Of a stretch of DNA of 64,000 nt, positions 12,228-61,122 are shown one piece after another. The stretch covers positions 248,001 through 312,000 of the forward strand of contig NZ_JAAVUW010000005.1 in the NCBI RefSeq assembly GCF_018449605.1, read 5' to 3'. This DNA comes from Luteibacter sp. dw_328. Its GTDB lineage: Bacteria > Pseudomonadota > Gammaproteobacteria > Xanthomonadales > Rhodanobacteraceae. The position numbers and the translations under genes were made by a program. Positions within the stretch are counted from its first letter, which is position 1. Every line of letters begins with the position of its first letter. The notes under the pieces are model-generated. The model made no database searches. It had not been told where the DNA came from and saw only the letters and a list, made by a program, of their open reading frames with translations.

Positions 12228-12245
12228 GATCCTTCCCGCGTCTGA

Positions 12246-44277: not shown

Positions 44278-45908
44278 ACACGGTCACTCCCGTAGCCACA
44301 ACGGCGCCCGCGCCGCCCGCCAACCTTCCCTGGCTGGGTATCGTCGCCGTGCTGGTCGGTGCGCTGGCAACCACGCTGACGTCGCGACTCACGTCGATCG
44401 GTCTCGCCGACGTGCGCGGCGCCGTCAGTGCCGGCTTCGACGAAGGGGCATGGATTCCCACCGCGTTCACCGCCTCGCAGATGATGATCGGACCGCTGTC
44501 GATCTTCCTCGGCCGCGCATTCACGCCGCGCCGCGTGCTCCTGGTCGGCTGCGTCGTCTACGGTGTGGCGTTGTTCCTCGTTCCGTTCGCACCGGATCTG
44601 CGCGCGCTGCTCGTGCTCCAGTGCCTGGCGGGGCTCGGGTCCGGCACGTTCATTCCGCTGACCGCCGCTTTCATCCTCACCGCGCTACCGAAGAGACTCT
44701 GGCCATGGGGCCTGGCTGCGTACGCGATGAACATCGTGCTCGGCCTCAACCTGGCCTCGACGCTCGAAGGCTGGTACGTGGAACACGTGACCTGGGATTG
44801 GATTTTCTGGCAGAACACCGTCGTGGCCGTGCCTCTTTTCCTACTCTATTGGTTCGGGTTACGACGACTGCCCATCGATCGCGACTACCTGCGAAACGGC
44901 GACTTTCGCGGCATGCTCACGGGTGCGGCAGGATTCACGTTTATCTTCGTTGCGCTCGACCAGGGCGATCGCCTCGACTGGTTCTCCTCCACGCTGATCG
45001 TCACCCTGCTCGCGCTGGGCGTCATATGCATGGGTCTGTTTCTTCTCCATGAATCGACACTCGATACACCCAGCGTGGACTTCCGGTTGCTCATGCGGCG
45101 CAATGTGTTCCTGCTGATCGTGCTGGTCCTGGCAACACGCTTCATGGTCACCGCCAGCAACACGCTGGTCGCGAATTACCTGATCCAGGTGCGCGGCCTG
45201 CGTCCGGAAGAAGTGGGGAATGCGGCCTTATGGGTGGCGCTGCCTCAGTTGATCATCGCGCCGACCGTCGCGTGGCTGCTCAACCGCGTGGATGCACGCT
45301 TTGCGATCGGCACGGGTTTCGCCATCGCCGCCACGGGTTTTCTTCTGGCCACGGGCATTACCTCCGAATGGACAGAATCGAACTTCAGTCTTGCCCTCCT
45401 GCTGCAAGCGATCGGGGAGACGCTGGAACTGACGGCGGTCATCTACTTCTTCGGCCACCATGTCGGGCCGGCGGATGGCATCACCTTCGGGGCGATCATC
45501 CAGACGGCCCGCCTGTTCGGCGGACAACTGGGAACCTCCGTGCTGGTGACCTTCACGCGGAAGGCCGAACAGTTGCACTCCAACCTCATCGGCCAGCACG
45601 TCGTCGCCGGCGAGCCGATGACGAACGAACGTCTCCTTGCTTACACGCAGATTTTTGGTTCATCGACCCAAGGTACCGGCGCACCTGAAGCCCGCGGCGC
45701 GGGCCTCCTGCTCGGTGCCGTCCGTGGTCAGGCTTACACCTTGTCGATACTCGATGGATTTCTTCTCGCCGCCGTGGTCGGCACGTTGGCCGTCGTACTG
45801 GTGATGTGCCTGCGCGAGCCCCCCGTCCTGGTCACTCCCGCCGCTGTGCCGCCGCTACCCCCTGAAGAACGTGACACCGTGTCGCATCCCGTTCACTCCA
45901 CTTCGTGA
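44274..45908 (+). CDS. EmrB-like DHA2 family MFS drug transporter
   Basis: 544-residue inner-membrane pump with 14 predicted segments. Signs of the family are the helix 1-4 region with ISTxxx-like DEGAWIPTAFTASQM and LGRAFTPRRVLLVG; the long C-terminal loop holds LHSNLIGQHVV. With the adaptor and outer-membrane channel it makes a tripartite pump similar to EmrAB-TolC. Substrates are unknown; hydrophobic toxicants or fusaric acid-like compounds are exported by relatives. Confidence 0.92.
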   Translation: MNTVTPVATTAPAPPANLPWLGIVAVLVGALATTLTSRLTSIGLADVRGAVSAGFDEGAWIPTAFTASQMMIGPLSIFLGRAFTPRRVLLVGCVVYGVALFLVPFAPDLRALLVLQCLAGLGSGTFIPLTAAFILTALPKRLWPWGLAAYAMNIVLGLNLASTLEGWYVEHVTWDWIFWQNTVVAVPLFLLYWFGLRRLPIDRDYLRNGDFRGMLTGAAGFTFIFVALDQGDRLDWFSSTLIVTLLALGVICMGLFLLHESTLDTPSVDFRLLMRRNVFLLIVLVLATRFMVTASNTLVANYLIQVRGLRPEEVGNAALWVALPQLIIAPTVAWLLNRVDARFAIGTGFAIAATGFLLATGITSEWTESNFSLALLLQAIGETLELTAVIYFFGHHVGPADGITFGAIIQTARLFGGQLGTSVLVTFTRKAEQLHSNLIGQHVVAGEPMTNERLLAYTQIFGSSTQGTGAPEARGAGLLLGAVRGQAYTLSILDGFLLAAVVGTLAVVLVMCLREPPVLVTPAAVPPLPPEERDTVSHPVHSTS

Positions 45909-45914
45909 CATCAT

Positions 45915-45934
45915 CCCTGGACCCACGTCCAGGG
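45915..45934 (+). terminator. Terminator-like hairpin after the efflux operon
   Basis: Perfect 8-base arms CCCTGGAC / GTCCAGGG with a CCAC loop, 7 bases after the emrB-like stop and followed by TTGAAAC. The U-tract is short, so termination may be partial. Confidence 0.5.
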
Positions 45935-45956
45935 TTGAAACATAGGGGACGCCGAC

Positions 45957-46340
45957 GTGCGTCGTGGTCTGGCACGAAACCGCTGGTTGGGATGGATGGC
46001 GCTGGTCGCCGTCTGGCTCACCGTGCTGGCGCCGTCGGTCTCGCGGACCGTATCGGCGGCCTTCGTGTTCCCGGACCTCGGGGCGTGGTGTGAAACCTCG
46101 CCGTCCGACCACCATGGCGCCACGACCGGCCATGACATGGATGCTCCCGGTGACGGCGCGGCGTGCGGCTACTGCACGCTGTTCGCACAGATGCCCGCGC
46201 TGGGTACCGCTTTCCACATCGGCCATGTCCTCCCGTCGCCCGGCTACGTTGCCGCCGCCCTTCCGGCCACACGCGCGCACGTGCCGGTGGCCATCCTGCA
46301 CGCACCGCCACGAGGTCCGCCGGTCGCCGCGCACGCCTGA
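45957..46340 (+). CDS. DUF2946 family exported protein
   Basis: 127-residue protein with an N-terminal membrane anchor or signal (about 10-35), a His/Asp-rich stretch (SDHHGATTGHDMD) and the DUF2946 hallmark GAACGYCTLFAQMP. Such proteins usually precede genes for TonB-dependent metal receptors, often linked to copper. The GTG start has an AGGGGAC site about 9 bases upstream. It lies 46 bases before the receptor gene. Confidence 0.78.
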   Translation: MRRGLARNRWLGWMALVAVWLTVLAPSVSRTVSAAFVFPDLGAWCETSPSDHHGATTGHDMDAPGDGAACGYCTLFAQMPALGTAFHIGHVLPSPGYVAAALPATRAHVPVAILHAPPRGPPVAAHA

Positions 46341-46386
46341 TCGCACCCGATCCCGCCGTACGCCACCGACCCACGGACTTATCGCC

Positions 46387-48684
46387 ATGACCCTGTTCCC
46401 CACGGATGGACGCGCCCTTGCGCGTGCCGTCGCCTGCGCCCTTGGCGCGGCCTGCCTGCCTGTCCACGCCGCCGACGGCCCCGATGACCCGCAACACGCG
46501 ACCACCCTGCGTGAAGTGCGTGTCTCAGCCGCCAGCCATGGCGCGCCGGTGGATCCCGACCTACCCGCCGCCGTCGAGACGATCACCGCCGAACAGCTGG
46601 ACCATCTCAACGTGATCAACGCCGAGGATGCGCTGAAGTACCTGCCTTCCTTCGGCATCCGCAAGCGCTTCACCGGCGACGAAAATGCCACCTTCTCCGT
46701 GCGCGGCACCAGCAACCAGCAGAGTGCGCGCGGGCTGGTCTACCTCGATGGCCTGCTACTTTCCAACCTGCTAGGCAACAACTGGGCAAATCCGCCGCGA
46801 TGGTCGATGGCCTTCCCCGAGAACCTCTCGCGCGTCGATGTGATCTACGGCGCTTACTCCGCGCTTTACCCGGGCAACGCCATCGGCGCGACCGTGCTGA
46901 TGACCACGCGCATGCCGGAGAAGCTCGAGGTCACGGGGGATGTGCAGGCATTCACCCAGCACGTACACACGTACGGTGTCGATCGCGACTACGGCGGCAG
47001 CCGGCAGACGGCGACCCTCGGCGACCGCGATGGTCGCTTTGCCTTCCTGATCGGGGTGTCGCATCTTCAGGCCAACGGCCAGCCACTGGTCTACGCCACG
47101 CAGAATCGATCTACCGTGCCGGGCACGCGCAATCCGGTCACCGGGGCCATCGGCGACACGGGCGCCAACGGCCTGCCGCGAGAGGTACTCGGGATCAATA
47201 GCGAGGGTCAGGAGGCGAGTAGCCAGGACGAAGCGCACGCGCGCCTGACCTATGACATCACGCCCGAACTCACCGCGGCGGTCACCGCGGGCTATTGGAA
47301 GCAGGACCTGTCGCACCGCACGGCGTCCTTCCTGCGCGATGCGAACGGCCAGCCCGTGTTGTCCGGACCGGTGACGATAGGCGGGCAGCAGTACACCGTG
47401 CCCGCCAACTTCTTTGCCCCGAGCACACGGCAGAGCCGGAATTATCTGTACGGCGTGTCACTGGGAACCCATCGTGACAGCGGATGGAACGTCGAAGGCG
47501 ACGCGTCTTACTTCGACATGGACCGGAACCGCGACCGCGTCGCCAATGCGGTGACCGACAATGGCGCGGGGCTGCTCACCGCTGGCGACGGCAGCCGCTG
47601 GCGCACGCTCGACCTGCGCGCCAGTCATACGCCCGACAGCCTCGAGGCCAACACACATTCGGTGAGCTTCGGCTATCACTTTGATGGCTATGCGCTGGAC
47701 AACGCCACGTACAACCTTGCCAATTGGCGCAACGGTGACGCGGGTGCCCTGACGAGCGCTAACGGCGGCAGCACGCAAACGCAGGCGGTCTATCTGCAAG
47801 ACGCGTGGCAGCTGATCGACCGCTGGCGGCTTACCGTGGGCGCGCGCTACGAACAGTGGCGTGCGTTCGACGGATCGCGCTCGACGTCGACGGCCACGGT
47901 CGGCTACCCAGAGCGAAAGGAATCACATACCTCGCCCAAGGCCTCGCTGGCGTACGACGCCAGTGACACGGTAACCCTTCGCCTGTCCGGCGCACGGGCC
48001 TATCGCTTCCCCACGGTGAACGAGTTGTTCCAGGGCACGTTCAACGGCATCGCGCTGATCAACAACGATCCCAACCTGAAGCCCGAGAACGACCTCTCGC
48101 GTGAATTTTCCACGGAGTGGTACCAGCCCAACGGTGTGGCCCGCTTCACGATTTACCGCAGCGATACGCGCAATACTCTGTTCAGCCAGACCGACACCAC
48201 GGTATTCCCGAATGTCACCAGCGTGCAGAACGTCGGCCTCGTACGCACACGCGGCGCCGAGGCGAGCTACGACGGCACCGGCGTCTGGTGGCCGATGTTC
48301 GACCTCAGTGCCAACGCGGCATATACGCAGGCGACGACGGTGACCAATGCGCGTAATCCCGCGTCCGAAGGCAAGCAGTTCTATCGCATTCCGCGCTGGC
48401 GGGCGAACGTGATCGGCACGTATCACGCCAGCGAGCATGTCGCCATGACTCTCGCCGGGCGCTATTCCGGGCGCCAGTACAACACCCTCGATCACAGCGA
48501 CATCGACCCGGACACGTTCGGCGGTGCCAGCGCCTTCCTTACATTCGATGCCAAGCTGACGTGGAAAGTCAGTGACCACGTGGAACTCGGCGCGGGCGTC
48601 GACAACCTCACCAACCGCCGCTATTACGTGTATTACCCGTACCCGTCGCGGAGCTACCTGGTGGAGGCCAAGTTCCGGCTCTGA
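46387..48684 (+). CDS. TonB-dependent outer-membrane receptor
   Basis: 765-residue receptor. A signal peptide ends in PVHAA near residue 31, then a TonB box-like LREVRVSA, a plug domain (AVETITAEQLDHLNVINAED, RGTSNQQSARGLVYLDG, VDVIYGAYSALYPGNAIGATV) and a 22-strand barrel ending in YLVEAKFRL. A longer frame without a start near a ribosome site was not used. The DUF2946 neighbour suggests a metal or metallophore ligand, but no ligand-specific motif was recognised. Its last 31 bases overlap the convergent lanthipeptide synthetase gene. Confidence 0.92.
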   Translation: MTLFPTDGRALARAVACALGAACLPVHAADGPDDPQHATTLREVRVSAASHGAPVDPDLPAAVETITAEQLDHLNVINAEDALKYLPSFGIRKRFTGDENATFSVRGTSNQQSARGLVYLDGLLLSNLLGNNWANPPRWSMAFPENLSRVDVIYGAYSALYPGNAIGATVLMTTRMPEKLEVTGDVQAFTQHVHTYGVDRDYGGSRQTATLGDRDGRFAFLIGVSHLQANGQPLVYATQNRSTVPGTRNPVTGAIGDTGANGLPREVLGINSEGQEASSQDEAHARLTYDITPELTAAVTAGYWKQDLSHRTASFLRDANGQPVLSGPVTIGGQQYTVPANFFAPSTRQSRNYLYGVSLGTHRDSGWNVEGDASYFDMDRNRDRVANAVTDNGAGLLTAGDGSRWRTLDLRASHTPDSLEANTHSVSFGYHFDGYALDNATYNLANWRNGDAGALTSANGGSTQTQAVYLQDAWQLIDRWRLTVGARYEQWRAFDGSRSTSTATVGYPERKESHTSPKASLAYDASDTVTLRLSGARAYRFPTVNELFQGTFNGIALINNDPNLKPENDLSREFSTEWYQPNGVARFTIYRSDTRNTLFSQTDTTVFPNVTSVQNVGLVRTRGAEASYDGTGVWWPMFDLSANAAYTQATTVTNARNPASEGKQFYRIPRWRANVIGTYHASEHVAMTLAGRYSGRQYNTLDHSDIDPDTFGGASAFLTFDAKLTWKVSDHVELGAGVDNLTNRRYYVYYPYPSRSYLVEAKFRL

Positions 48685-51344
48685 CGTATCGGTGTCGGCA
48701 GGTGTTCGTCGAGCATGAAGGCCGCCGGTGCATCGCGCCGCAGTCGGTCGAAGAACGAACCGACGCCCACGCCGCCCGTGGCCAGGTCGCAACTGATGCG
48801 CAGCAATTCGGTACCAGGCACGGCGAGCCCCTCCTCGCGCTGGATGAGGAAGGGCTCGATGCCGTGCGCCACGCGAAGGGCGCCTTCGCGATAGATCGAA
48901 GCGCGTTCGGGCATGAAGTGCGCAAGGTCCAGAAGCGTCTCGCCGATACCAGCGAGCCCCTCAAAAAGGCCCGGGCTGATCGCGTGGCTGCGTAGCAAGT
49001 CTTCCTCGCTGGCGAGCAATACATCCCGGTAGTGCGCCTCACCTGTGAACGCTAGAAAACGGGCAACCACGGCCGTGACTCCAGCCGTTCCCCTCCTCAG
49101 GTAGGGCACTGAAGGGAAGGGCCCCCGGGACATCGGCCATGTCCAGGCACCATCCGCATTGCTGCGCCGCTGCGCGAGGTCGTAGGCGAGGCCGGCCGTT
49201 GCGCCCCGGAGGAAACGTGGTTCACCGGTGGCTACGTGCAGGTGGAGAAGGAACAAGGCGATTCCCGCCGCACCATGCGCGAGGCCGATCGGTTGCTGAT
49301 CGCCATCGGGCCAGCGCAGCGTTTCGTCGTCCTCGGTGATCGCGGCGGACAAAAGTTCGTCACCTGCTCGCGCGGCTGCTGTGAGAAAGCCGCCATCCGC
49401 TGTTTCGTGCCATGCCTTGATACGGGCAAACCCCCAACCGGCGATGCCCTCGTACAGCCCGGGGCATTCCCGGATACCGCCCTCGAGCGAGTCCGGGCGC
49501 AGCAGCGCCACCGCACGTTCGGCGTCACCGGCCTCGAAGAGGACCCATGCGATACCGGCGTCCCCAGACATCAGGCTCACGCCACGCTGCCGGGGCTCAT
49601 CGACGCCGGAAAGCAGATAGTCGCGCAGCCCGTCCGGCGGCACACGCGCACCGCGTAGATAGGCATGCAGGATGCCGGCGGCACCATGGGCGACACCCCA
49701 GGGGTGAGTCTCGAAGACATCGGGGGCAGCGGGCACGAATCGATCCGGTCTTGCGTGCACCGCCTGCGCCGTGACGTAGCCGAACAGCTTATCTGCATGC
49801 TCCGCCAAGGGCGGAGTAAGACGATTGCGATGGGGCACCGGTGCGGTACCCGCCTCCACGCATGCAAGGCTGGCCCGTAAGGCGGTCATCACTGTCGTCG
49901 GTGACGGCCGTGCCGTTGGTCTCGTATCCAGTAACTGGCCAATCGCTTCGGCCAGCGCGTCGGGGTATCCCATGTCTGCGCTCAGCCGGCGGGCGAAGCG
50001 CAGCGCGACGCTCCGGTCCAGGGGCAGCATCGCGTTCACGGGAATCATGGCTGCCAACAGGTTCGCGCCGAAGGCATAGCGATCTTCGCTCACCGCCGCC
50101 TCGTGATCCTTGGGTAGCGGATCGCCCGAGGCGAACCCCGGTGTCCGAAAAGGCATGGGCGCGTCGAGCCCGTGCTCAACGGCCGCCTCCAGATCGATCA
50201 GCCGTATCTCGCCCGTGGCATCCACGATGATGTTATGGAATGAGAGGTCACCCAGTGACACGCCGACCGCGTGGACCCGCTGGATCGCATCGGCGAGGCG
50301 ACCGAATACCGCGACGACATCGGTGAGGAAACCGGCCACGTCGTCCCTGGTAGCCCGTGTTTTCAGCCAGGGGTAGCGCTTGCCCAGCCAGGATCGAAGC
50401 GTAGGCCCTCGCAGGTACTCCTCGACCAGGAAACCATGTTCGCCTTCCTCGAAGCATGCGATCGGCTGCGGCGCGATGCCGAGGGACGCCAGGCGTCGAA
50501 GCAGGCGGAACTCCTTGCGTAGGTTGTCCTTGGCTGTTTCGCCATAGCCGACATACGGGCGGGCCTCCTTGATGACGACGCGACGCCCTTCGTGCAAATC
50601 GTCGGCGAGGTAAACCCCACCCGCGGAGGAAAATGCCAGGGCCTCGTGCACCCGGTAGCGGCCACCTCCCAGCAGGACAGAAGGCGCCGGCTCGGTGGGA
50701 GCGGCGGTGCCAAAGGGGTCGCGTAGCCAGTCGGAAAGTCGAAACCGCGGCAGGCGATCATCGGGTTCCACGGCGTCATCGGGGCGCCGCAGCAACCATT
50801 CGTGGCGCCCGCCCGGCGACACACGAAAATCCGAGACGATGCCGCCATAGCGGTAGTGGAGTACGCGCGAGTCATCGTAGCGGCGATCGGTAAGGACGTA
50901 CGGCCCGATATACCCCGACAGCGCCGCATGAAGATTGGCCATGACCTGACGGAAGTCGTCCACATTGCGCGGGTACACCGTAATGAACTTGCCCGATCCA
51001 CTTCGCGGCCAGCGTTTGCCGTTGATAGCGGCGAGCATGCCCTGATCCGCGGCGAACTTGAATGCGGTACCGGACTCGGCGAGAACCGCCGTGGCGACGG
51101 ACAGCACGATGTGTGCGGTAGAAGCGATCGAGGAGATGTGGATCTTCCAACCTTGTGTCGGCAGCACGGCGTTCGCGGGCCGACAGTGCACCCATATACC
51201 CGACCGCTGGATCGACCAGTGCGCGGGAAGCACGCGCCTGGCCGGGGAGATGAAGTCGGCCTCCTGCACAGCGCGACGTGCATAAGGTTCGAAAAACTCG
51301 CGATCGACCGCGGTGTACTGCAACAACTGGGCGCGTCGTTCCAT
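48654..51344 (-). CDS. Class III lanthipeptide synthetase (LanKC-like)
   Basis: 896-residue three-domain enzyme expected to phosphorylate and eliminate Ser/Thr and then form (methyl)lanthionine or labionin rings. The N-terminal lyase domain (about 60-200) has WKIHIS (66-71), FKF (96-98) and SGKFITVYP (117-125). The kinase domain (about 228-500) has VVIKE with Lys259, LGDLSFHN with Asp366 and IDLE with Asp384 in place of DFG. The C-terminal LanC-like domain (about 540-896) has the repeats VAHGAAGIL, LAHGAAGIA, RRGTAGV and FEGLAGIG. It lacks the Cys-Cys-His zinc set of NisC-type cyclases, as class III enzymes do. The start at 51344 has a GGGAGG site; a longer frame covers the precursor gene and is rejected. 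Confidence 0.92.
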   Translation of the reverse strand: MERRAQLLQYTAVDREFFEPYARRAVQEADFISPARRVLPAHWSIQRSGIWVHCRPANAVLPTQGWKIHISSIASTAHIVLSVATAVLAESGTAFKFAADQGMLAAINGKRWPRSGSGKFITVYPRNVDDFRQVMANLHAALSGYIGPYVLTDRRYDDSRVLHYRYGGIVSDFRVSPGGRHEWLLRRPDDAVEPDDRLPRFRLSDWLRDPFGTAAPTEPAPSVLLGGGRYRVHEALAFSSAGGVYLADDLHEGRRVVIKEARPYVGYGETAKDNLRKEFRLLRRLASLGIAPQPIACFEEGEHGFLVEEYLRGPTLRSWLGKRYPWLKTRATRDDVAGFLTDVVAVFGRLADAIQRVHAVGVSLGDLSFHNIIVDATGEIRLIDLEAAVEHGLDAPMPFRTPGFASGDPLPKDHEAAVSEDRYAFGANLLAAMIPVNAMLPLDRSVALRFARRLSADMGYPDALAEAIGQLLDTRPTARPSPTTVMTALRASLACVEAGTAPVPHRNRLTPPLAEHADKLFGYVTAQAVHARPDRFVPAAPDVFETHPWGVAHGAAGILHAYLRGARVPPDGLRDYLLSGVDEPRQRGVSLMSGDAGIAWVLFEAGDAERAVALLRPDSLEGGIRECPGLYEGIAGWGFARIKAWHETADGGFLTAAARAGDELLSAAITEDDETLRWPDGDQQPIGLAHGAAGIALFLLHLHVATGEPRFLRGATAGLAYDLAQRRSNADGAWTWPMSRGPFPSVPYLRRGTAGVTAVVARFLAFTGEAHYRDVLLASEEDLLRSHAISPGLFEGLAGIGETLLDLAHFMPERASIYREGALRVAHGIEPFLIQREEGLAVPGTELLRISCDLATGGVGVGSFFDRLRRDAPAAFMLDEHLPTPIRQSRNLASTR

Positions 51345-51377
51345 AGCGAGCCAATCCTCCCTGTTCGGATGCAACCC

Positions 51378-51413
51378 GGCACGCGGGGCGGCCCGGACGC
51401 CGTCCCGCGTGCC
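51378..51413 (-). terminator. Attenuator-like hairpin between precursor and synthetase genes
   Basis: On the minus strand 10-base arms GGCACGCGGG / CCCGCGTGCC enclose a further 4-base stem CGGC / GCCG with a 6-base loop; one A-C mismatch separates the two stems. It begins 14 bases after the precursor stop and ends 33 bases before the synthetase start. No U-run follows, so partial read-through or RNA protection is likely. This would give more precursor than enzyme. Confidence 0.7.
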
Positions 51414-51427
51414 TTCGCTTGCCCGTG

Positions 51428-51559
51428 TTACTCCGCGAAGCCGTCCATTTGGTAGATGGAGCAATGAGTGTCGCTGCACGACGTCACACCCTCGCCACCC
51501 TCGTTGTGATCCCAACCAGGATGGGTTGCGAGGTTCTGCAGATCGAGTACGTGTGGCAT
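51428..51559 (-). CDS. Class III-like lanthipeptide precursor (43 aa)
   Basis: Small gene below usual length cut-offs. The ATG at 51559 has AAAGGA six bases upstream and the frame ends in TAA at 51428. The leader starts MPHVLDLQNL; VLDLQNL (residues 4-10) matches the ILxLQ-type recognition motif of class III leaders. A Gly/Glu-rich link with GG at 21-22 leads to the core-like region TSCSDTHCS (26-34). Within it T26-x2-S29-x3-C33 fits the labionin pattern (Ser/Thr)-x2-Ser-x3-Cys, and C28 is a second thiol. It lies directly before the class III synthetase gene on the same strand. Function is inferred; no homologue search was possible. Confidence 0.82.
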   Translation of the reverse strand: MPHVLDLQNLATHPGWDHNEGGEGVTSCSDTHCSIYQMDGFAE

Positions 51560-51593
51560 GACTATTCCTTTAGTTCCGCGATGTGTTCGAGCC

Positions 51594-51653
51594 GAATCTA
51601 GGGTGCGTTCAGTGCCCCAGCCAGTGCCCGGGGCGATCGTTCAGGGGATGAAC
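51594..51653 (-). promoter_or_regulatory. Control region of the precursor gene with GTTCA-N5-TGAAC palindrome
   Basis: A perfect palindrome GTTCATCCCCTGAAC lies at 51653-51639. Downstream there is TAGATT (51600-51595) as a possible sigma-70 -10 box. Overlapping this is CTGGGGCACTGAACGCA (51620-51604), whose GG-N10-GC spacing fits a sigma-54 core. A direct repeat GGGCACTG occurs at 51629-51622 and 51617-51610. The region lies between the histidine kinase stop and the precursor start; which promoter is used is not decided by sequence. Confidence 0.45.
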
Positions 51654-51672
51654 CTGCGCATTCGATGGATTT

Positions 51673-53091
51673 CTATCGGGCGTGACCGCTTTTGAGTGCC
51701 TTCGCTGTCCGGAACCGGACAGCGCGGTCCGCAGCCGGACACAACGGCAGCCGCACGGTGGCCACGACGCCCTTCGCATCGCTGCGCGCGGCGAGGTCGA
51801 CTGTTCCACCGTGCGCTTCGACGATCAGGCGCGTCAGCGTGAGGCCGATGCCCGACCCCTCGGGCTTCGTGGTGAAGAAAGGCACGAAGAGACCGTCGCT
51901 GGCGGGCAGCCCGCTGCCCTCATCCTCGATCGTCACACGCGCGTAGTCCTCTTCGATGCGCCAGTCGACGCGAACGCCGCCGCCCGTCGCCAGCGTGGCC
52001 TCGACCGCGTTTCGCATGAGGTTGATGAAAGCCTGGCCCAGCTGGTCTTCGTCACCGTCGATGGTCACCGCCGAAGCGCCATGGACGTCGATGATCTTCC
52101 GCTGTTCGAGCCGTGCGAAGCGCAGCAACGCGACGTCGAGGCGGAAGGGGCGACGTTGCAGGGGAGGCAGACGCGCCAGGCGGCCATAGCCGGCGAGGAA
52201 GCGTGTCAGGGAGTGGGCGCGCCGGCCGATCACTTCGAGACCGAGGCGGAGCTCGTCAACGGTTGTTGCGCGATCGCCCGCGTCGAGCAGGGTTGAGAGA
52301 CTGCCCGCCAGAGAGCCGATCGGGGCGAGTGAGTTGTTCAGCTCGTGACTGAGCACGCGAATCAGTCGCTGCCACGCGCGTCGCTCCTCCTCACTCAATG
52401 CGGCACTCAAGTCGTGAAGCATCACCATCGTGTGCTCCGTTCCCTCGCTGTACCAGACCGCCCGGCGCACCGCCCAGCGACCGTTGGCCGCAGGAAACCG
52501 GTGGGTGAGAATGGCTCCGTCAGCAGCCCCAAGCGGGACGGACAAGCCGAGTGAGTCCGTGTCATGTCCAACGATAGACGCGCGCTCGCCACCAATCAGC
52601 CGCCTGGCGGCCGGGTTGATAAACGTCACGCGAGTCTTGTCGTCGACGACGAAAACCGCGCTATGCAGTGCAACCAGGGTCTTGCCCAGGAAGCGGGAAG
52701 CCTCAGTACGCTTGCGCCTCCCCGCGCGCAGGTCGTCGGTCAGCACGTTCACGTCCGCAATCATGCCTTGCAGGGGATCGCGGCCGGGACGAACCCTTCC
52801 GCGCATGCTGTAGTCGCCTTCACGTACGGCGAGCAGCAGGTCGAAGACCGTCCCCAACGTGGCAACCAGGCGATTGCCACGTATCCAGCCGACGAGGACA
52901 CTCAGCAGAAGTCCGGTGCCAAACAGAACGGCCCGCAAGGCCCCGGAGAGTCCATCGAGGGTGGCAAGCAGCGCGCCGCTCACGATGAGCGGTGTCAGGA
53001 GGACCCCGACCCAGAGTGTCGCCTCGATGCGCAGTACCGTGGAGCGATCGCGCACCGCCTTGGCAGGGCGCGGGGGACGAGCCGGGGCCAT
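51673..53091 (-). CDS. Membrane sensor histidine kinase (NtrY-like)
   Basis: 472-residue kinase. Two membrane segments (about 22-44 and 52-70) with almost no periplasmic loop suggest sensing within the membrane or cytoplasm. A HAMP-like linker, a PAS domain (about 135-230) and HisKA with His249 (RVLSHELNNSLAPIGS) follow. The ATPase has NLMRNAVEA, DEGSGLP and GSGIGLTL. The start at 53091 has an AGAGG site. It lies 13 bases after the response-regulator stop and 113 bases before the precursor gene, so it probably controls the lanthipeptide locus. Confidence 0.92.
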   Translation of the reverse strand: MAPARPPRPAKAVRDRSTVLRIEATLWVGVLLTPLIVSGALLATLDGLSGALRAVLFGTGLLLSVLVGWIRGNRLVATLGTVFDLLLAVREGDYSMRGRVRPGRDPLQGMIADVNVLTDDLRAGRRKRTEASRFLGKTLVALHSAVFVVDDKTRVTFINPAARRLIGGERASIVGHDTDSLGLSVPLGAADGAILTHRFPAANGRWAVRRAVWYSEGTEHTMVMLHDLSAALSEEERRAWQRLIRVLSHELNNSLAPIGSLAGSLSTLLDAGDRATTVDELRLGLEVIGRRAHSLTRFLAGYGRLARLPPLQRRPFRLDVALLRFARLEQRKIIDVHGASAVTIDGDEDQLGQAFINLMRNAVEATLATGGGVRVDWRIEEDYARVTIEDEGSGLPASDGLFVPFFTTKPEGSGIGLTLTRLIVEAHGGTVDLAARSDAKGVVATVRLPLCPAADRAVRFRTAKALKSGHAR

Positions 53092-53104
53092 GTCTGTCGG
53101 CCTC

Positions 53105-54481
53105 TCAGTCCACAGGCTCGAAGCTGCTTCGGAGACGGCGCTTGTCGAGGCGGCGATACAACGACTGTCGTGAAATGCCCAGTGCATCGGCGGCACGCTG
53201 AAGGTTGTGATCGTTGCGATCCATAGCCTGCCGTATGAGCATATCTTCGGCTTCGGGAAGTGTGAGTCGGTCCAGCAACAGAGGCGATCCCGTCTGCTTA
53301 CTCAGATTCAGGCCCTCCACATCGATCTCATCGCGATCGGCCAGTAAGACTGCCCGCTCCACCGCATGCTCCAACTCGCGGACATTTCCCGGCCAGTCGT
53401 AGGTGCGCAAGAGACGTTCAGCCGACGGCGCCATGAACATGCAGTCCCGCTGGCGACGGCGACATTCGCGCAGGAGGAAGTGTCGGGCCAGCGGAACGAT
53501 GTCTTCGAATCGTTCGCGCAACGGGGGCAGACGTATCTGCATCGCGTTGAGACGATAGAGGAGATCGCGTCGGAATCGATCGGCACGAACCGCCTCGCCC
53601 AGGTCGGCGTTGGTGACAGAGATCACCCGCACATTCACCCGGTGCGTGCGAGCCGACCCGGAATGCTCCAGTTCACCTTCTTCGAGCACCCGCAGCAGCT
53701 TCACCTGCTGGCTCATCGGTATATTGCCGATCTCCTCCATGATCAGGCTGCCCCCACAGGCCAACTCGAAGCGCCCGGGCCGCGGCCTCGGATCATCGTC
53801 GCCGAACATTTCGTCGACGAAGCGGGATTCGGGGAGGCTACCCATATCGACGCGGATCACGGGTCCTTCCGCGCGCGACGACATGGTGTGAATCTCGCGG
53901 GCCAATAGGGATTTCCCCGTCCCATTCTCGCCGAGGACAAGGACATTCGAGTCGCCCGGAGCGATACGGGATGCCAGCTTCATCACCTCGCGCATCGCCG
54001 TCGACTCCCATGCCCGCCACACGTCGGTCATCTCCCTGCCCAGCGCGTTCTCGGCACGAAGGCGTCGGTTCTCCTCGCGAATCGTGCGCAACGCGATCTG
54101 GCTGCGCACGGTATGGACGACTCGTTCGTTGATCCAGGGCTTCTCGATGAAGTCTGCTGCGCCAAGCCGCATGGCATGGACGGCAAGATCGACGCTGCCC
54201 CAGGCGGTCATCGCCACGAGCGGGAGATCGGGTACTTCTTCGCGGAGGCGGGCGATCAGTTCCATGCCTTCCCGACCGGACGTTGTGTCGGCGGTGTAGT
54301 TGAGGTCAAGGACGGCACAGGAGAATTCGACGCGCGATACCGCGTCAAGGGCCGCCGCAGGTGAAGTGACTTCCACAGACGGAATGTCCGCGGAGCGGAA
54401 AAGCAGGCGTAGTGAAACCAGTACGTCGGCCTGGTCGTCGACGATAAGCACGGGGAGTGGGGGCGCGCAGAGCATGGTCAT
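53105..54481 (-). CDS. NtrC-family response regulator lacking the GAFTGA loop
   Basis: 458-residue regulator. The receiver domain has the acidic pair at 15-16, phospho-acceptor Asp59 (VLDL) and Lys114. The AAA+ domain has Walker A GENGTGKS (184-191). After MFG (225-227) the sequence runs DDDPRPRPGRFE, so the sigma-54 contact loop GAFTGA is deleted, and Walker B reads LIMEEI instead of LFLDEI. A Fis-type helix-turn-helix ends the protein (NLQRAADALGISRQSLYRRL). Loss of GAFTGA suggests it acts without sigma-54, like TyrR or Rhodobacter NtrC. It overlaps the permease stop by four bases. Confidence 0.93.
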   Translation of the reverse strand: MTMLCAPPLPVLIVDDQADVLVSLRLLFRSADIPSVEVTSPAAALDAVSRVEFSCAVLDLNYTADTTSGREGMELIARLREEVPDLPLVAMTAWGSVDLAVHAMRLGAADFIEKPWINERVVHTVRSQIALRTIREENRRLRAENALGREMTDVWRAWESTAMREVMKLASRIAPGDSNVLVLGENGTGKSLLAREIHTMSSRAEGPVIRVDMGSLPESRFVDEMFGDDDPRPRPGRFELACGGSLIMEEIGNIPMSQQVKLLRVLEEGELEHSGSARTHRVNVRVISVTNADLGEAVRADRFRRDLLYRLNAMQIRLPPLRERFEDIVPLARHFLLRECRRRQRDCMFMAPSAERLLRTYDWPGNVRELEHAVERAVLLADRDEIDVEGLNLSKQTGSPLLLDRLTLPEAEDMLIRQAMDRNDHNLQRAADALGISRQSLYRRLDKRRLRSSFEPVD

Positions 54482-56877
54482 GACCGGAAGCTCCTCTCTC
54501 GGCGGGACCCCCGAGGCGATATCGTCAGCTCGCCGCGAAGTATGGTGACGGATCGAAGGGTGGAGGCGCGTAGCGACGGCAAAGCCACGGCGCAAAGCGC
54601 CGCGAAAATCATCATCAGGGCGACGGCGGCAGCCACGCTGGCGTCGATCCCGCCGGTCTCGAGCGCCGAATGCCGAAATGCCTGCCCCATGACGACGGAA
54701 GCGACCAAACCTAGCGCGACACCAGGCATGGCCATGGCCATGCCGCGTGAAACGGCATGGCCAAACAGGTCCAGAGGCGTCGCCCCCAGTGCGTCGCGAA
54801 GGGCGATGTCACGTCGGCGGCTGATCACGTCCAGCGTTTGCACCGCATAGAGACCGATGCAGGCGAGGGACAGCGCCATGCCAGAGAAGGCTGCAGCCAG
54901 GGCGGCGTTACGTCGCGTCTCCGCGGTCGCGTCGCGAACGAGTCGTTGAAGGGGTTGCAGCGGCCCCGCTACCAGACCCGGTGCGGCTCGTTCGACCATC
55001 GTCTGCAAGACCTGAGCGTCCACGGGCTTGCTACCCGGACCGCGAACGACGACGAATGTCGATACGAAGCGTCTGATGAAGGCATAGGTACCCGGGTCGA
55101 CCTGGGCAAACGGCACGTAGATCGTGGGCTCCGTTGATCGCTCCGCGCCGGCAGCTCGCGTATCCGCCACGACCCCCACGATGCGAAGTGCCCGGGTTGT
55201 ACCGAGTTGCGAAGCGGGCATCACCGAGGCGCCGATGCCGCGTCGATCGATCTGGTCGACATACGCCTGGTTGACCATGGCCACGTGCGGGGCTGTGGCC
55301 CGGTCGTCCGCGTCGATGTCCCGGCCTGCTGCCCGGTCGATTCCCATCGAGTCCATCGCGCCGGGGGAAACCATGACGTACCGAAGGTAAGAGATTTCTC
55401 CATTCGGCGACCGAAACGGTCTGAAAAATCCGGTGCCCACCGGAAGCAGGGTGGTCAACCCCACCGCGTCGACGCCTGGCAGTCGCAGGGCGCCGATTCG
55501 CAGCGCTTCGCCGGCACGGACCACGCTGGCAAGCGTAGGGAACTGCAGGCTGTCCGGGCTGATTTCGACGAAGCTCGCCCCTTCCGCCTGAAAACCGAGG
55601 GGTATCTGTATCACGCGCCACATCCGGGTCACGGTCGCCACACCCAGGACCAGCAGCATCGTCGCGAGTGCCGTCTGGATCAGCACGATCAGGTGCCGGG
55701 CACGCCGGGCCGGACCCGGCGATGTTCCTCCCAGTGTGAACTGCGCACGCAAGACCCGTTCCGGGCTGGCGTGCATCGCGGCGGGTATCGCGGCGGCGGT
55801 CGTCGAAGAGATAGCCGCGACTACCGTCGCAAGGCAAACCGGTAAGTCCAGATCGATCGGCAGCGACGAGATGAGCCAGGACGGAGGGACAAAAGAACGC
55901 ACCGCCGTCACGATGGCATGTGCGAGCGGCAGTCCCACGACCAGTCCACCCACACTGATGGCGGCGACATCCGCGATCAGTGGAAGCCTGGGCCGCCACC
56001 CCAGTCCGCCGAAGGCTATCGCAAGGCAGGTCTCATGCGTGCGCCGCAGTGCGCGCGACAAGAGGAGGTTGGACAGATTCACCCCGGCAATGGCAAGGAC
56101 CAACAATGAACACATGAAGAAGGTGAGCACAGCGGGCCTGGCCTTGCTGGTCAGGACGGTATCGAGCGGCATCGTTCCATACGGGAGGGTCGGTGTCTGC
56201 GCCTGCAGCCATCGTGCAACGCTGTCGCCGGATACGCCGGGAGCAAGCCGTGCGATGGCGACGAGGTTCGCCGCACTGTCGCCGGACAGGTGCATCGACG
56301 GAAGCGGAAGGAGCAGGTCCATGTCGGCGAACAGGCGGTAGTCCGGCGGAAGTACACCGCGCACCGTCATTACCGCTCCGTTTACCGCGATGCCGCGCCC
56401 CACCACACCCGTATCACCGGCGAGCCAGCTCAACCAGAACGCGTGCGAAAGCATGACGCTGCTTTCGGCGGTGATCGACGAATCATCCGGCAGTACCGAC
56501 CTGACACCCAGGGTGGGTAGGAATCCGGCATCGACGCGCTGAGCACGCGCGAGAGCCTGCCGGATACCCACACGAACATTCACCGATTCAGCCATATGTG
56601 CGGCGCCGGTCGAAAGTACGCCCGGGGGCCGGCCAATGGCGTCGTATGCCTTCGGCGAAGCCGCAAGGCCAACGGGGTCGCGTCCTGCCTCGCCGTAGAT
56701 GACGACGCGGTCGTGGTAGGGGAATGGCGGCGAGGTCAGAAGGGATTCGACCATGGTCAGGGCACTGGTGAAGGCAGCCAGGCCGATCCCCAGGGTCAAC
56801 GCCGCTAGCGGCAGGAACCCGCGCGGGCGCCAGAGTGCCCGCCAGGTGCGATCCAGGGCATTCAGTGGCACGTTCAT
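54478..56877 (-). CDS. MacB/FtsX-type ABC permease, duplicated (ADOP-like)
   Basis: 799-residue permease with eight predicted membrane segments and two periplasmic MacB_PCD domains. The layout is TM1 (about 20-42), domain 1, TM2-4, TM5 (RARHLIVLIQTALATMLLVL), domain 2 (VMVSPGAMDSMGIDRAAGRD, IVGVVADTRAAG, IYVPFAQ) and TM6-8 with RRRDIALRDALGA. This duplicated form resembles the acidobacterial duplicated orphan permeases, but here an ATPase is adjacent. It overlaps the ATPase and regulator genes by four bases each. Likely exports or senses the peptide, or gives immunity. Confidence 0.9.
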   Translation of the reverse strand: MNVPLNALDRTWRALWRPRGFLPLAALTLGIGLAAFTSALTMVESLLTSPPFPYHDRVVIYGEAGRDPVGLAASPKAYDAIGRPPGVLSTGAAHMAESVNVRVGIRQALARAQRVDAGFLPTLGVRSVLPDDSSITAESSVMLSHAFWLSWLAGDTGVVGRGIAVNGAVMTVRGVLPPDYRLFADMDLLLPLPSMHLSGDSAANLVAIARLAPGVSGDSVARWLQAQTPTLPYGTMPLDTVLTSKARPAVLTFFMCSLLVLAIAGVNLSNLLLSRALRRTHETCLAIAFGGLGWRPRLPLIADVAAISVGGLVVGLPLAHAIVTAVRSFVPPSWLISSLPIDLDLPVCLATVVAAISSTTAAAIPAAMHASPERVLRAQFTLGGTSPGPARRARHLIVLIQTALATMLLVLGVATVTRMWRVIQIPLGFQAEGASFVEISPDSLQFPTLASVVRAGEALRIGALRLPGVDAVGLTTLLPVGTGFFRPFRSPNGEISYLRYVMVSPGAMDSMGIDRAAGRDIDADDRATAPHVAMVNQAYVDQIDRRGIGASVMPASQLGTTRALRIVGVVADTRAAGAERSTEPTIYVPFAQVDPGTYAFIRRFVSTFVVVRGPGSKPVDAQVLQTMVERAAPGLVAGPLQPLQRLVRDATAETRRNAALAAAFSGMALSLACIGLYAVQTLDVISRRRDIALRDALGATPLDLFGHAVSRGMAMAMPGVALGLVASVVMGQAFRHSALETGGIDASVAAAVALMMIFAALCAVALPSLRASTLRSVTILRGELTISPRGSRRERSFRS

Positions 56878-57752
56878 GGAAACGACTCCGTGCTGCGGCG
56901 CTCGTCCAGACCCGCTTCGGCCTCACGCTGTCGCTGACGAAACGTCGTCTCATCGATGACACAGCCGTCCAGCAACCGTATCGTGCGGTCCGCCACCCCT
57001 CTGAACCGCTCGTCGTGCGTGACCATGCAGATGGTCCGACCCGACGCGTGCAGACGGCTGAGAAGTGCCATCACAGTCTCACCATTGCGCAGGTCGAGAT
57101 TGCCCGTTGGCTCGTCGGCAAGGAGGATGGACGGCTCGCCAGCGAGCGCCCGGGCCACGGCCACACGCTGCTGCTGTCCCCCGGAAAGCTGGTCGGGATA
57201 GTGGCGCATGCGGTGCGCCATGCCGACATCGGCCAACGCGCTGGCTGCGCGATCCGCGCGCTCGCGGCGACTCATGCCATCGCGAAACGACAGCGGCAAT
57301 TCGACGTTCTCGGCGACCGTCATGTCGCCGATCAGGTTGAAAGCCTGAAAAACGAAGCCGATGTGCTGGTTCCGCAGGCGCGCCCGGGCACGCCTGCCCA
57401 GACCGGACATCGACTGTCCCAGAAAGCGAAATGTCCCGTAGGTGGGTATGTCGAGGACACCCATCAGGGACAGCAGCGTGGTTTTCCCGCAACCGGAAGG
57501 CCCCGCGATCGAGACGAACTCTCCCCGACGAATATCGAGATGGATGTCGCTGAGGACGTGGACTTCCATCGCGCCGATGTCGAAGACCTTGCCGATGCCT
57601 CGCATCTCGATCACCGCGGGAGCGCGAGCCGATTGCACCGTAGCCACCTCGCCCCATTGACCCCCGTCGATGGATTGTGACCCGGCACTCAAGCTCTCGT
57701 GGATCGCGTCGCTATCTTTTGCCGGAAACGCTTTGTGATCAGCGCTTTCCAC
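56874..57752 (-). CDS. MacB/LolD-type ABC transporter ATPase
   Basis: 292-residue ATPase. Walker A GPSGCGKT, Q loop GFVFQAFNLI, signature LSGGQQQRVAVARAL, Walker B ILLADEPTGNLD and switch His in CMVTHDE are complete. The MacB/LolD subfamily is shown by IGDMTVAENVELPL. The GTG start at 57752 adds about 48 residues before the domain; an internal Met at residue 50 could be the real start. First gene of the operon that leads to the regulator and kinase. Confidence 0.92.
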   Translation of the reverse strand: MESADHKAFPAKDSDAIHESLSAGSQSIDGGQWGEVATVQSARAPAVIEMRGIGKVFDIGAMEVHVLSDIHLDIRRGEFVSIAGPSGCGKTTLLSLMGVLDIPTYGTFRFLGQSMSGLGRRARARLRNQHIGFVFQAFNLIGDMTVAENVELPLSFRDGMSRRERADRAASALADVGMAHRMRHYPDQLSGGQQQRVAVARALAGEPSILLADEPTGNLDLRNGETVMALLSRLHASGRTICMVTHDERFRGVADRTIRLLDGCVIDETTFRQRQREAEAGLDERRSTESFP

Positions 57753-57909
57753 TCAATCGTTTTCCGCATCTACGTTACGACTTACGTTAACTAGACGATG
57801 CCGGTCTGCCGGGCAGCCGCTGCCGTGAGGCGACCCAAGGGATTCGCCGAAACGCGAGGCGGCCGAAGACGGTCAATTCGGCCACGACGAATGCTTTGTG
57901 CCCCAACGA
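57753..57909. other. Divergent control region, ABC operon versus GH3 gene
   Basis: Intergenic DNA that should contain the ABC-operon promoter. It shows a TACGTTA direct repeat (on the plus strand, near 57772 and 57784), but no reliable promoter boxes. The GTTCA-N5-TGAAC palindrome seen before the precursor gene is not repeated here. Confidence 0.35.
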
Positions 57910-57923
57910 TGTAATCGTTTACA
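57910..57923 (+). promoter_or_regulatory. LacI-family operator
   Basis: TGTAATCGTTTACA matches TGTAA-N-CG-N-TTACA, the palindrome bound by many LacI-family sugar repressors. It overlaps TTACATGTAA (57919-57928), a second small palindrome. It lies about 100 bases before the GH3 start and should mediate sugar-dependent control. No LacI gene is in the window. Confidence 0.6.
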
Positions 57924-58023
57924 TGTAACGCTATTTACGTGCCCACTCGGGGTGCCGATGCCGGTATCCTTGCCCGCTTACGGCGCCGGAACGCGCGCCG
58001 ACCGTTCCCAGGGCAAGACCACC

Positions 58024-60201
58024 ATGATCCGTGACCCCCGCATCGAAGACCTGATCGCCCGCATGACCGTCGAAGAGAAGGTCGGCCAGTTGGGCGTGTT
58101 TGCCGATGCCGTGCGCCCGTTCGCACCCGATATCAATCCCGAGGCCAACGCCCGTGGTGCCGCCGAGGTACTCGAGCAGGTGCGCGCCGGGCGCGTGGGC
58201 GCGTTGTTCAACGGCGTCGGCGCGACGGAGGGTCGCGAGGCGCAGCGAGTAGCCGTGGAAGAGAGCCGGCTGGGCATTCCCTTGTTGCTCGGCGCCGACG
58301 TGATCCACGGCATGCGCACTGTTTTCCCTATCCCGCTGGGCGAAGCGTCCACTTTCGAGCCGGACCTCGCCGAGCGCACCGCACGCGCGACGGCGGTCGA
58401 AGCCACCGCCGCAGGCATTCACTGGACCTACGCGCCGGCGGTCGACATCGCGCGCGACCAGCGTTGGGGGCGCGTGGCCGAGGGCGCCGGTGAAGACGTG
58501 GTGTTGGGTTCTGCGTTCGCCGCGGCGCGCGTGCGCGGCTTCCAGGGCACCGACCTCACGGCCGACGACTCGCTGCTCGCCACCCCGAAGCACTTCGCCG
58601 CCTATGGCGCCGTGGCCGGCGGCATGGAATACAACTCGGTGGAGATCGCGCCGCAGACGCTGCGTGACGTTCACCTCCCACCCTTCAAGGCGGCTCTCGA
58701 AGCTGGCGCGCTGACGTTCATGAGCGCGTTCAACGATATCAACGGCGTGCCAGCCTCCGCCAATCGCGAACTGATGACCGATATCCTGCGCGGCGAATGG
58801 GGCTTCGAGGGTTTCGTCGTCTCTGATTACACCGCCGACATGGAACTCATCGCCCACGGCTTCGCGGAAGACGAACGCGATGCCTCGCGCCTTGCCTTCC
58901 TCGCCGGCGTGGACATGAGTATGCAGAGCGGTTTCTACGCCGCTCACCTGCCCGACCTCGTCGCGAAGGGCGACGTACCCATGGACGTGCTGGACGAAGG
59001 CGTGCGCCGCGTCCTCCGCGTAAAGAACGCGATTGGCCTGCTGGACAATCCCTACCGCTCCCTCGACCCCGCCGTGGAAGCCGACACCTCGAAGAATGCA
59101 GAGCACGCGGCGCTGGCACGCGACGGCTCGCGGCGTTCCATCGTCATGCTGAAGAACGACGGCGTCCTGCCGCTGCGCAAGCGCGGCCAGAAGATTGCCT
59201 TGATCGGGCCGTTTGGCGCGGACGTCGACAATCTCGAAGGTTGCTGGACCCTTTTCGGCGACAAGACGCGTCACGTGAACATCGAGACTGGTCTGCGCGA
59301 TGCGCTGGACATGAACACCGAGCTCGAGGTCATCGCCGGCAGCGGCATCGAGGACGCGATCGCGGGTGGTATCGAGGCCGCCGTGGCGGCTGCCCAGCGA
59401 GCCGACGTCGTGCTGCTCGCCATCGGTGAGCCCCAGGTTTATTCCGGAGAGGCCCAGTCGCGCACGCAGATCATCGTACCGCCAGCCCAGCAGGCCCTGG
59501 CCGAAGCGGTCGCCGCCACAGGTACGCCGGTCGTGGTGCTCTTGAAGAACGGACGTGCGCTCGCTCTCACCGGGGCGGTGCGCGACGCCAACGCCATCCT
59601 CGTCACCTGGTTCCTCGGCAGCCAGACCGGCCCCGCCATTGCCGACGTCGTCTTCGGCGACTACAACCCGGCCGGACGCTTGCCGGTCAGTTTCCCGCAG
59701 GACGCTGGCCAACAGCCCTATTACTACAACCATCTGCGCACCGGCCGCCCGGAACTCGCCGAGCAGCCGCCCGCGTTCAAATCGCGCTATCGCGAGATAC
59801 CCTTCGACGCGTTGTATCCCTTTGGCCATGGCCTCAGCTACACCACGTTCGCCTACACGGCGCCCGAAGTGAAGGCGCAGGTCGGCTGGAACGACGCCAT
59901 CGTGGTCAGCGCGACGGTAACCAACACCGGGGACATCACGGGCGAGGAAGTCGTGCAGTTGTACATTCACGACCGCGTCGCGAGTCGTGTGCGGCCGGTT
60001 CGCGAACTGAAGGCGTTTCGCAAGATCCTCCTCGCACCGGGCACTTCCGACAAAGTGTCGTTCGAACTGACCCGCGAGGATCTCGCATTCACGCACCGTG
60101 ACGGCAAGACGTTCGAAGCCGAACCGGGCGACTTCCAGGTGTGGATCGCCGGATCGTCCGCGCAGGGTGACGCAGCGACCTTCGTCCTTGGGAGGCCCTG
60201 A
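58024..60201 (+). CDS. Glycoside hydrolase family 3 beta-glucosidase
   Basis: 725-residue GH3 enzyme that releases sugars from the non-reducing end of beta-glycosides. The N-terminal barrel has GIHWTYAPAVDIARDQRWGR, LATPKHFAAYGAVAGGMEYN and the nucleophile Asp in GFVVSDYTADME. The second domain (about 380-600) and a fibronectin-like C-terminal domain (VTNTGDITGEEVVQLYI) complete the family layout. The start MIRDPRIEDLI gives a protein without a signal peptide, whereas E. coli BglX is periplasmic; an upstream start at 57958 would not add a convincing signal either. Confidence 0.93.
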   Translation: MIRDPRIEDLIARMTVEEKVGQLGVFADAVRPFAPDINPEANARGAAEVLEQVRAGRVGALFNGVGATEGREAQRVAVEESRLGIPLLLGADVIHGMRTVFPIPLGEASTFEPDLAERTARATAVEATAAGIHWTYAPAVDIARDQRWGRVAEGAGEDVVLGSAFAAARVRGFQGTDLTADDSLLATPKHFAAYGAVAGGMEYNSVEIAPQTLRDVHLPPFKAALEAGALTFMSAFNDINGVPASANRELMTDILRGEWGFEGFVVSDYTADMELIAHGFAEDERDASRLAFLAGVDMSMQSGFYAAHLPDLVAKGDVPMDVLDEGVRRVLRVKNAIGLLDNPYRSLDPAVEADTSKNAEHAALARDGSRRSIVMLKNDGVLPLRKRGQKIALIGPFGADVDNLEGCWTLFGDKTRHVNIETGLRDALDMNTELEVIAGSGIEDAIAGGIEAAVAAAQRADVVLLAIGEPQVYSGEAQSRTQIIVPPAQQALAEAVAATGTPVVVLLKNGRALALTGAVRDANAILVTWFLGSQTGPAIADVVFGDYNPAGRLPVSFPQDAGQQPYYYNHLRTGRPELAEQPPAFKSRYREIPFDALYPFGHGLSYTTFAYTAPEVKAQVGWNDAIVVSATVTNTGDITGEEVVQLYIHDRVASRVRPVRELKAFRKILLAPGTSDKVSFELTREDLAFTHRDGKTFEAEPGDFQVWIAGSSAQGDAATFVLGRP

Positions 60202-60204
60202 AAC

Positions 60205-60981: not shown

Positions 60982-61122
60982 CGATCGGTCGCGGCCAGCG
61001 AGCCGGGACAACCCTACGTGCGCCTCGGCGAATGGTGCAAATCACCGCGCCGATGACCGATATGGGCAGCGCTCCCCCGCGCGTAGCTTCGTGGTCCCCT
61101 CGATACGAGAGAACCACCAAGC

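Follow-up and report, generated by a model that had tools for sequence, protein, structure and literature searches.

A class III lanthipeptide locus in Luteibacter and a putative sigma-class switch of its NtrC-type regulator

In a 64-kb window (64,000 nucleotides; contig NZ_JAAVUW010000005.1, positions 248,001 to 312,000) of the 5.05-Mb draft genome of Luteibacter sp. dw_328, six minus-strand genes lie in a row. By Pfam and NCBIfam comparison they encode an ABC ATPase, an ADOP-like permease, an NtrC-type response regulator, a histidine kinase, a lanthipeptide precursor (lanA) and a class III lanthipeptide synthetase (LanKC). Coordinates given below without a locus or genome name are positions within this window. 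The best overall explanation is that a captured regulator moved to another sigma class in step with its promoter and now probably drives lanthipeptide production. In a more specific form, towards which we lean with less confidence, the switch would have occurred both in trans, by deletion of loop L1 and replacement of the Walker B aspartate by glutamate, and in cis, by exchange of a sigma54 promoter for TTG-N21-TAGATT at a fixed distance from the old binding-site array. A transporter-reading kinase would then drive peptide production from an enhancer-type sigma70 promoter. This regulatory switch is the strongest part of the analysis and was absent from an earlier note on this DNA, which had described the six genes and proposed a joint role in production, export or immunity, and sensing. 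Such a joint role is plausible.

The regulator gene (53105..54481, minus strand) matches PF00072, PF00158 (Sigma54_activat) and PF02954. Its product has no L1/GAFTGA loop and its Walker B motif reads ...MEE. The missing loop, which the earlier note had recognized, is common to all 21 regulators encoded beside LanKC in Luteibacter; in the aligned examples it appears as a six-residue gap relative to generic relatives. The Walker B aspartate is replaced by glutamate (..EE) in 20 of these 21 proteins. Relatives of the regulator with 50-58% identity are spread across the family Rhodanobacteraceae, and 34 stand-alone cassettes containing them (20 + 14) were chosen by hand, not at random, from the list of relatives. 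Loop L1 of these generic regulators reads GA[FY]TDA in 34/34. The 20 generic loci fetched all contain the regulator, the kinase and the ADOP permease, and 19 contain the cognate ATPase (one stretch ended early). Two of the 20 are second cassettes in Luteibacter, and three come from genomes that have a LanKC elsewhere.

Most generic cassettes begin with a gene for an HlyD-type adaptor. The adaptor promoter could be scanned in 26 of the 34, the other eight (L098, L111, L113, L114, L154, L157, L161 and L162) having no usable start. A sigma54 promoter, TGGCAC-N5-TTGC, is situated 26-28 bases before the adaptor start codon in 25 of these 26 (threshold at least 9/10 positions; shuffled background 0.4%), and paired palindromes lie upstream in 22 (background 0.1%). 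In L098, a sigma54 site was seen by eye upstream of the ATPase gene. In the lanthipeptide loci, no sigma54 site reaches the same threshold before lanA (0/21) or before the ATPase gene (0/21). The genome does contain rpoN. A sigma54 promoter for lanA had been suspected by eye (GG-N10-GC near 51620), and was rejected with 6/10 positions in the window and none of the 21 loci at 9 or more.

Palindromes of the form TGTCCG-N4-CGGACA are found upstream of lanA in all 21 loci, with two or three matching at least 9/12 positions in 20. Pairs spaced 18-24 bp apart are present within 260 bp in 21/21 loci and within the last 200 bp in 16/21, where the shuffle background is 0.1%. The window has two such palindromes, TGTCCG-N4-CGGAC(A/C), 20 bp apart at the 3' end of the kinase gene (51706..51741, minus strand), which are presumed to be the regulator sites. 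This tandem array, matched at lanA without mismatch, has no other genomic occurrence at up to 3 mismatches. The presumed lanA promoter (51593..51624, minus strand) is made up of a -35-like CTGGCT, 18 bp and a TAGATT inside CCTAGATTCG, which is unique in the genome (control 0). A box close to CCTAGATTCGC is present in 17 of the 21 lanthipeptide loci versus 1 of 26 generic promoters. The last palindrome lies 93-94 or 115-117 bp from the box in 17/17 loci that have one, and the distance from TAGATT to the lanA start codon varies in these loci from 41 to 73. The triplet TTG recurs 18 bp before the hexamer position (T in 12, T in 17 and G in 16 of 17 loci), suggesting that TTG-N21-TAGATT is a sigma70-like promoter of lanA. 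The regulator fits a pattern of L1 deletion, upstream paired sites and a sigma70-like promoter, the box being clear in 17/21 loci.

In a regulator tree of 41 rows, a 100/100 branch separates the 21 lanthipeptide regulators from the others; this tree includes the first 20 generic regulators without the later 14, is rooted at the midpoint and carries a long-branch warning. The loop-bearing form is probably the older one. The regulator, kinase, ATPase and permease would thus derive from a stand-alone sigma54-dependent cassette with the order adaptor-ATPase-ADOP-regulator-kinase. In the lanthipeptide version the adaptor gene would have gone, the sigma54-contacting loop would have been lost, and the sites would have come to face lanA instead of the transporter. 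The earlier note had suggested that the coupling of a class III lanthipeptide to such genes would be a new architecture. The ABC and two-component genes are, however, a variant of a cassette common in Rhodanobacteraceae and no invention of the lanthipeptide locus.

The synthetase gene (lanKC; 48654..51344, minus strand) encodes 896 residues with PF25816, PF00069 and PF05147. It scores 690.7 bits against the class III model NF038151, above the cut-off of 575; class IV (LanL) was rejected, since NF038150 gave 548.2 bits, under its cut-off of 650. The closest relatives in the PDB are the LanKC chains 8sao, 8sap and 8sam, over residues 45-420. Across 20 aligned LanKCs from Luteibacter (the split G114 gene was omitted), neither the kinase lysine nor either catalytic aspartate varies. 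The positions of the LanC zinc ligands, assigned by motif rather than by structure, hold in these proteins S/T (with a single A), F in most cases, and D/E. The same pattern is given for ThurKC, with Ser726, Phe770 and Asp771, in the excerpted text of PMC10604976.

The precursor gene lanA (51428..51559, minus strand) encodes 43 residues with an LDLQNL leader motif and a TxxSxxxC core motif, which in the window begins with Thr. A precursor open reading frame (ORF) is present at the equivalent place in 20/20 other genus loci; the ORF and its start were picked by hand from the listed ORFs and, where there were several, the one with a leader or core motif was taken. The pattern [ST]xxSx(2-3)C is found in 21/21 precursors, and its strict xxx form in 20, compared with a mean of 0.8 and a maximum of 5 in 2000 residue shuffles; the remaining precursor (G117) has SxxSxxC. 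The leader motif LxLQ is present in 19/21. Available parts of two papers describe Sx2Sx3C together with LxLQ (PMC7268733), and SxxSx{2,5}C (PMC11251773), as features of class III precursors. The dN/dS ratio of lanA was 0.23-0.56 in six pairs (eight were tried; two of unequal length were skipped). The combination of six genes with a conserved precursor is not due to chance, because LanKC exceeds the class III cut-off and the precursor ORF recurs at the same place in all 20 loci with dN/dS values in this range. By the criterion of the earlier note, LanKC genes in relatives that have no precursor here would refute its proposal; all 20 genus loci have one, and this test did not refute it. Its gene list also holds, including the full LanKC and the SapB-like 43-residue precursor, with the starts of the ATPase and LanKC genes corrected to 57638 and 51344, and the Xanthomonadales-like DNA it had recognized is of Luteibacter type.

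The predicted product of the locus is a small lanthipeptide of class III. LanKC would be recruited by the LxLQ leader, and the Ser/Thr-x-x-Ser-x-x-x-Cys core would be dehydrated, after which a metal-free cyclase would close it to a ring of labionin or lanthionine. Metal-free ring closure is known for class III and is likely for the Luteibacter LanKC. Expression of lanA would be driven by the neighbouring two-component pair. The phosphorylated regulator would bind the tandem array, centred ~100-145 bp upstream of the predicted start, and activate sigma70 RNA polymerase, rather than the sigma54 form, at TTG-N21-TAGATT.

The histidine kinase (51673..53091, minus strand) has a HATPase_c match of 67.2 bits and PAS matches under the gathering scores. 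By hydropathy it has two nearly contiguous membrane segments (19-48 and 48-72), and neither Pfam nor hydropathy gave an evident periplasmic sensor domain in the window protein. Because no sensor domain is evident, the kinase probably senses what the MacB-type transporter is doing, in the manner proposed for BceS and BceAB; the ABC genes adjoin the kinase and regulator genes in all loci. The transporter may export the peptide or protect the cell, and the kinase would couple production to export or self-protection. BceR is an OmpR-type regulator, whereas the Luteibacter regulator is NtrC-type and its predicted output is biosynthesis, not the transporter. In the portion of PMC10314905 consulted, BceS is proposed to read BceAB cycling, and BceAB-BceRS resembles the Luteibacter set in that an FtsX-family ABC transporter, a kinase seemingly without sensor domain and a regulator are encoded together.

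Another possibility, doubtful but the most serious of the alternatives, is that the transporter serves immunity only, that the peptide leaves by another exporter, and that what the two-component pair detects is foreign peptide or stress at the envelope, not the cell's own product. This would be compatible with the sigma switch. Bce-type modules are described as resistance modules in the same portion of PMC10314905, and a pair of genes for an outer-membrane efflux protein and a major facilitator superfamily (MFS) pump lies next door. Further support comes from 15 other LanKC loci (ten found by searching the order, four by searching the family, and a second copy in G110), whose LanKCs are 29-36% identical to that of the window, with C-terminal pieces near 40% in two-piece genes. 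An ABCB-type exporter was confirmed by Pfam in ten of them, and at least three of these ten also have MacB/FtsX permeases. Such permeases lie near LanKC in L053, L054, L056, L089 and L090; the Pfam scan of neighbours covered part of the ORFs. Relatives of the ATPase (60-62%) and of the ADOP permease (30-31%) are found near LanKC in G450 and G460. G450 also has a confirmed HlyD adaptor, and neither genome gave a regulator or kinase match near LanKC. MacB-type transporters thus recur beside LanKC in the order, but the Luteibacter locus alone showed all six genes in this arrangement. Against a role in immunity only, the array faces lanA and the transporter has no autoregulation site.

The proposed sigma switch has precedents. 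NtrC proteins without GAFTGA are described from Caulobacter and Rhodobacter capsulatus, as two of few such examples, and are reported at sigma70 promoters; the R. capsulatus protein is reported to activate via sigma70 and to need ATP binding but not hydrolysis (PMC10274813, available part). The Luteibacter regulator shares the L1 deletion with them, and differs in its additional Walker B Asp to Glu change and in having loop-keeping sigma54 relatives in the same family. The same excerpt states that Caulobacter NtrC has both activated and repressed targets, so the Luteibacter regulator might be a repressor, or might work with sigma54 in an unusual way, the TAGATT element then not being a promoter. 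The four loci lacking the box leave room for this. This alternative is nevertheless unlikely in view of the count of sigma54 sites (0/21, against 25/26 in relatives), the fixed spacing from array to box and the conserved TTG-N21-TAGATT.

LanKC is present in 21 of 23 Luteibacter genomes, including G114, where it is split over two contigs; in one locus (L051) the end of the contig cuts LanKC short. In 20/20 other genus loci LanKC is accompanied by the genes for kinase, regulator, permease and ATPase, arranged as in the window. The two remaining genomes, G113 and G119, do not have the set between the flanking genes for a TonB-dependent receptor and a GH3 glycosidase. The G113 site holds instead an ORF of 276 residues, which we read as PhzF-like, and the G119 site holds unrelated genes, with short similarities to the ATPase and kinase (~35% over 59-67 residues) inside larger ORFs. 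Genome-wide, no LanKC was found in either genome, G113 having one short cyclase-like match, and no regulator was found at E <= 1e-90; the absence of the ABC, kinase and precursor genes refers to the site only. The link between the regulatory and ABC genes and the lanthipeptide genes, as supposed in the earlier note, is borne out by their joint presence in 21/23 genomes, their joint absence from the site in 2/23 and the position of the array before lanA. That an efflux or stress cassette of ATPase, permease, regulator and kinase stands beside a lanthipeptide gene pair by accident is very improbable: related cassettes do occur without LanKC in the stretch in 20/20 fetched loci, and 13 of the 15 other LanKC loci show no kinase or regulator match at E <= 1e-3 in the stretch, but the array precedes lanA and not the ABC operon, both halves are missing together from the site in G113 and G119, and the cassette itself keeps no sigma54 site or array.

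Several observations weigh against the proposed capture and switch. The evidence comes from sequence analysis, the role of the ABC genes being conjectural, and the loci share descent, so their counts are not independent events. No clear TAGATT box is seen in G104, G106, G107 and G114 (4/21), the -35-like TTG (genus consensus TTGnnn) is CTG in the window, and two of 21 lanA promoters match the sigma54 consensus at 8/10 positions, where 0.9 would be expected. A reversed tandem pattern gives five chance places in the genome at up to 3 mismatches, and single palindromes occur at 24 places at up to 1 mismatch, which is not significant against 18 for the reversed-pattern control. An odd Walker A, GKG, is found in most generic regulators, against the usual GKS in the lanthipeptide regulators, so the change at the ATPase site is only partly a loss. 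A simple hydropathy rule resolved two clear membrane segments in just 14 of the 21 lanthipeptide kinases. The precursors of G106 and G117 lack LxLQ, that of the window stays under the cut-off of the SapB/AmfS model NF033212 (17.9 bits versus 25), and only two of 21 pass an NCBIfam precursor cut-off. These two pass NF038154 (cut-off 22; G122 with 24.2 and G118 with 22.1), which 12/21 match at E <= 1. A precursor model of this kind is weak for short peptides and does not define the chemistry.

In the family Rhodanobacteraceae, 61 of 233 genomes gave any match to the LanKC query; real LanKCs are those of the 21 Luteibacter genomes and of G090, G141, G159 and G206, and the remaining matches are short stretches resembling the kinase or the cyclase. 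Of the 398 genomes in the order sample, 29 exceeded the class III cut-off, 19 of them Luteibacter, and weaker matches were found in 393; one of 14 control genomes exceeded it. In the phylum sample the genome itself was the sole match at E <= 1e-60 (1/398). A scan of contigs returned one locus, L031, from Luteibacter sp. OK325. A two-component neighbour is not to be called unique to the Luteibacter locus, because two other LanKC loci have one. In L094 (G476; 7985-14172), a divergent NtrC-type regulator and a kinase (39% and 32%) lie directly upstream of LanKC; this regulator has a GAYTGA loop and a normal Walker B, and neither a palindrome array nor a sigma54 site at 9 or more was found in the locus. 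LanKC is accompanied here by a two-component system of another kind than in Luteibacter. In L093 (G280), a kinase (36%) and the end of a regulator are situated ~4 kb from LanKC.

The earlier note had called the system undescribed, which is half right. AntiSMASH class III calls are in print for four of five Luteibacter mycovicinus strains (PMC11165876), so the gene type is not new in Luteibacter, and lanKC is reported in Lysobacter (PMC9410377). These reports concern the same genus or the same order and the same synthetase class; the L. mycovicinus calls may or may not refer to the window locus, and the available portions of the two papers do not describe gene order, precursor, regulator or promoter. 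No paper on the six-gene architecture or on a sigma switch of a lanthipeptide regulator was among the matches listed in the open-licence literature. The control of the locus, rather than the class III gene type, looks to be the new part. With SapB/AmfS, labyrinthopeptin and ThurKC the locus shares RamC_N, kinase and zinc-ligand-free LanC-like domains, the LxLQ leader and the SxxSxxxC core. It differs from them in its gammaproteobacterial host, a short core with one motif and its own two-component pair, and shows no ABCB exporter among the scanned neighbours.

Loop-keeping sigma54 relatives and the switched form coexist in one family, and the latter seemingly has a single genomic target array; the change could therefore be taken apart at the level of single residues and bases. 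The locus also provides a predicted class III lanthipeptide that is found in almost the whole of a Gram-negative genus, together with a testable idea about its activation. In our view, turning on expression is a frequent obstacle to finding such products.

The ATPase gene (56874..57638, minus strand; PF00005, 114.6 bits) encodes a MacB/LolD/DevA-like protein whose best NCBIfam models are DevA, MacB and DarD, every score being below cut-off. Most relatives align from 57638; an upstream GTG lies at 57752. The protein is 65-96% identical in 19 of the 20 other genus loci. In L040 (G118; 14091-14827) the ATPase is found in two overlapping pieces (61% and 75%), resembling a frameshift. The permease gene (54478..56877, minus strand) encodes a duplicated MacB/FtsX protein (PF12704 and PF02687) that matches TIGR03434 (ADOP) over its full length with 377.3 bits, below the cut-off of 622.3, and is thus ADOP-like and not a member; it has weak similarity to the MacB structures 5lil and 5nik. 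The ATPase and permease families are those of MacB/ADOP and DarD-type exporters, from which the Luteibacter cluster differs in having no membrane-fusion protein and in scoring below the TIGR03434 cut-off. As the earlier note had observed, the first three genes overlap, by 4 bases each (ATPase-permease and permease-regulator).

The gap between lanA and lanKC (51345..51427, minus strand) contains a strong GC hairpin (-46.3 kcal/mol; z -2.9 versus mononucleotide shuffles), which may set the ratio of precursor to enzyme. It was dropped as a defining part of the locus, with z <= -2.5 in just 7 of 21 loci. An Rfam scan of the window gave no match. Elsewhere in the genome (G000:C1:955239-958499; L117, L122 and L123), three more TGTCCG-N4-CGGACA-like palindromes lie within 3.3 kb and are perhaps targets of another regulator.

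Convergent with LanKC, genes for the outer-membrane efflux protein, the MFS pump and the TonB-dependent receptor lie in a row on the plus strand (42850-48684), the last overlapping the LanKC 3' end by 31 bases. Of the 20 other loci of the genus, 18 show the receptor gene (one contig stops too soon), and it flanks the site in G113 and G119 too, which lack the lanthipeptide set there. On the other side the flanking gene is that of the GH3 glycosidase (57898-60201, plus strand). An ORF antisense to it (57931-61011, minus strand) was rejected as the flanking gene, with no Pfam match in the 756-residue part scanned.

G110 has a second, distant LanKC (L052; G110:C1:2277544-2280189), 33-34% identical and without the regulatory set in its stretch. 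LanKC is found in kinase and cyclase pieces in L054 (G090; 11010-13686) and L096 (G450; 7566-4892), through real splitting or frameshifts. Two further loci, L088 (G334) and L091 (G251), each have three similar small candidate precursors (sequences GSAASLGCD and GSFAS(I/L)GCD).

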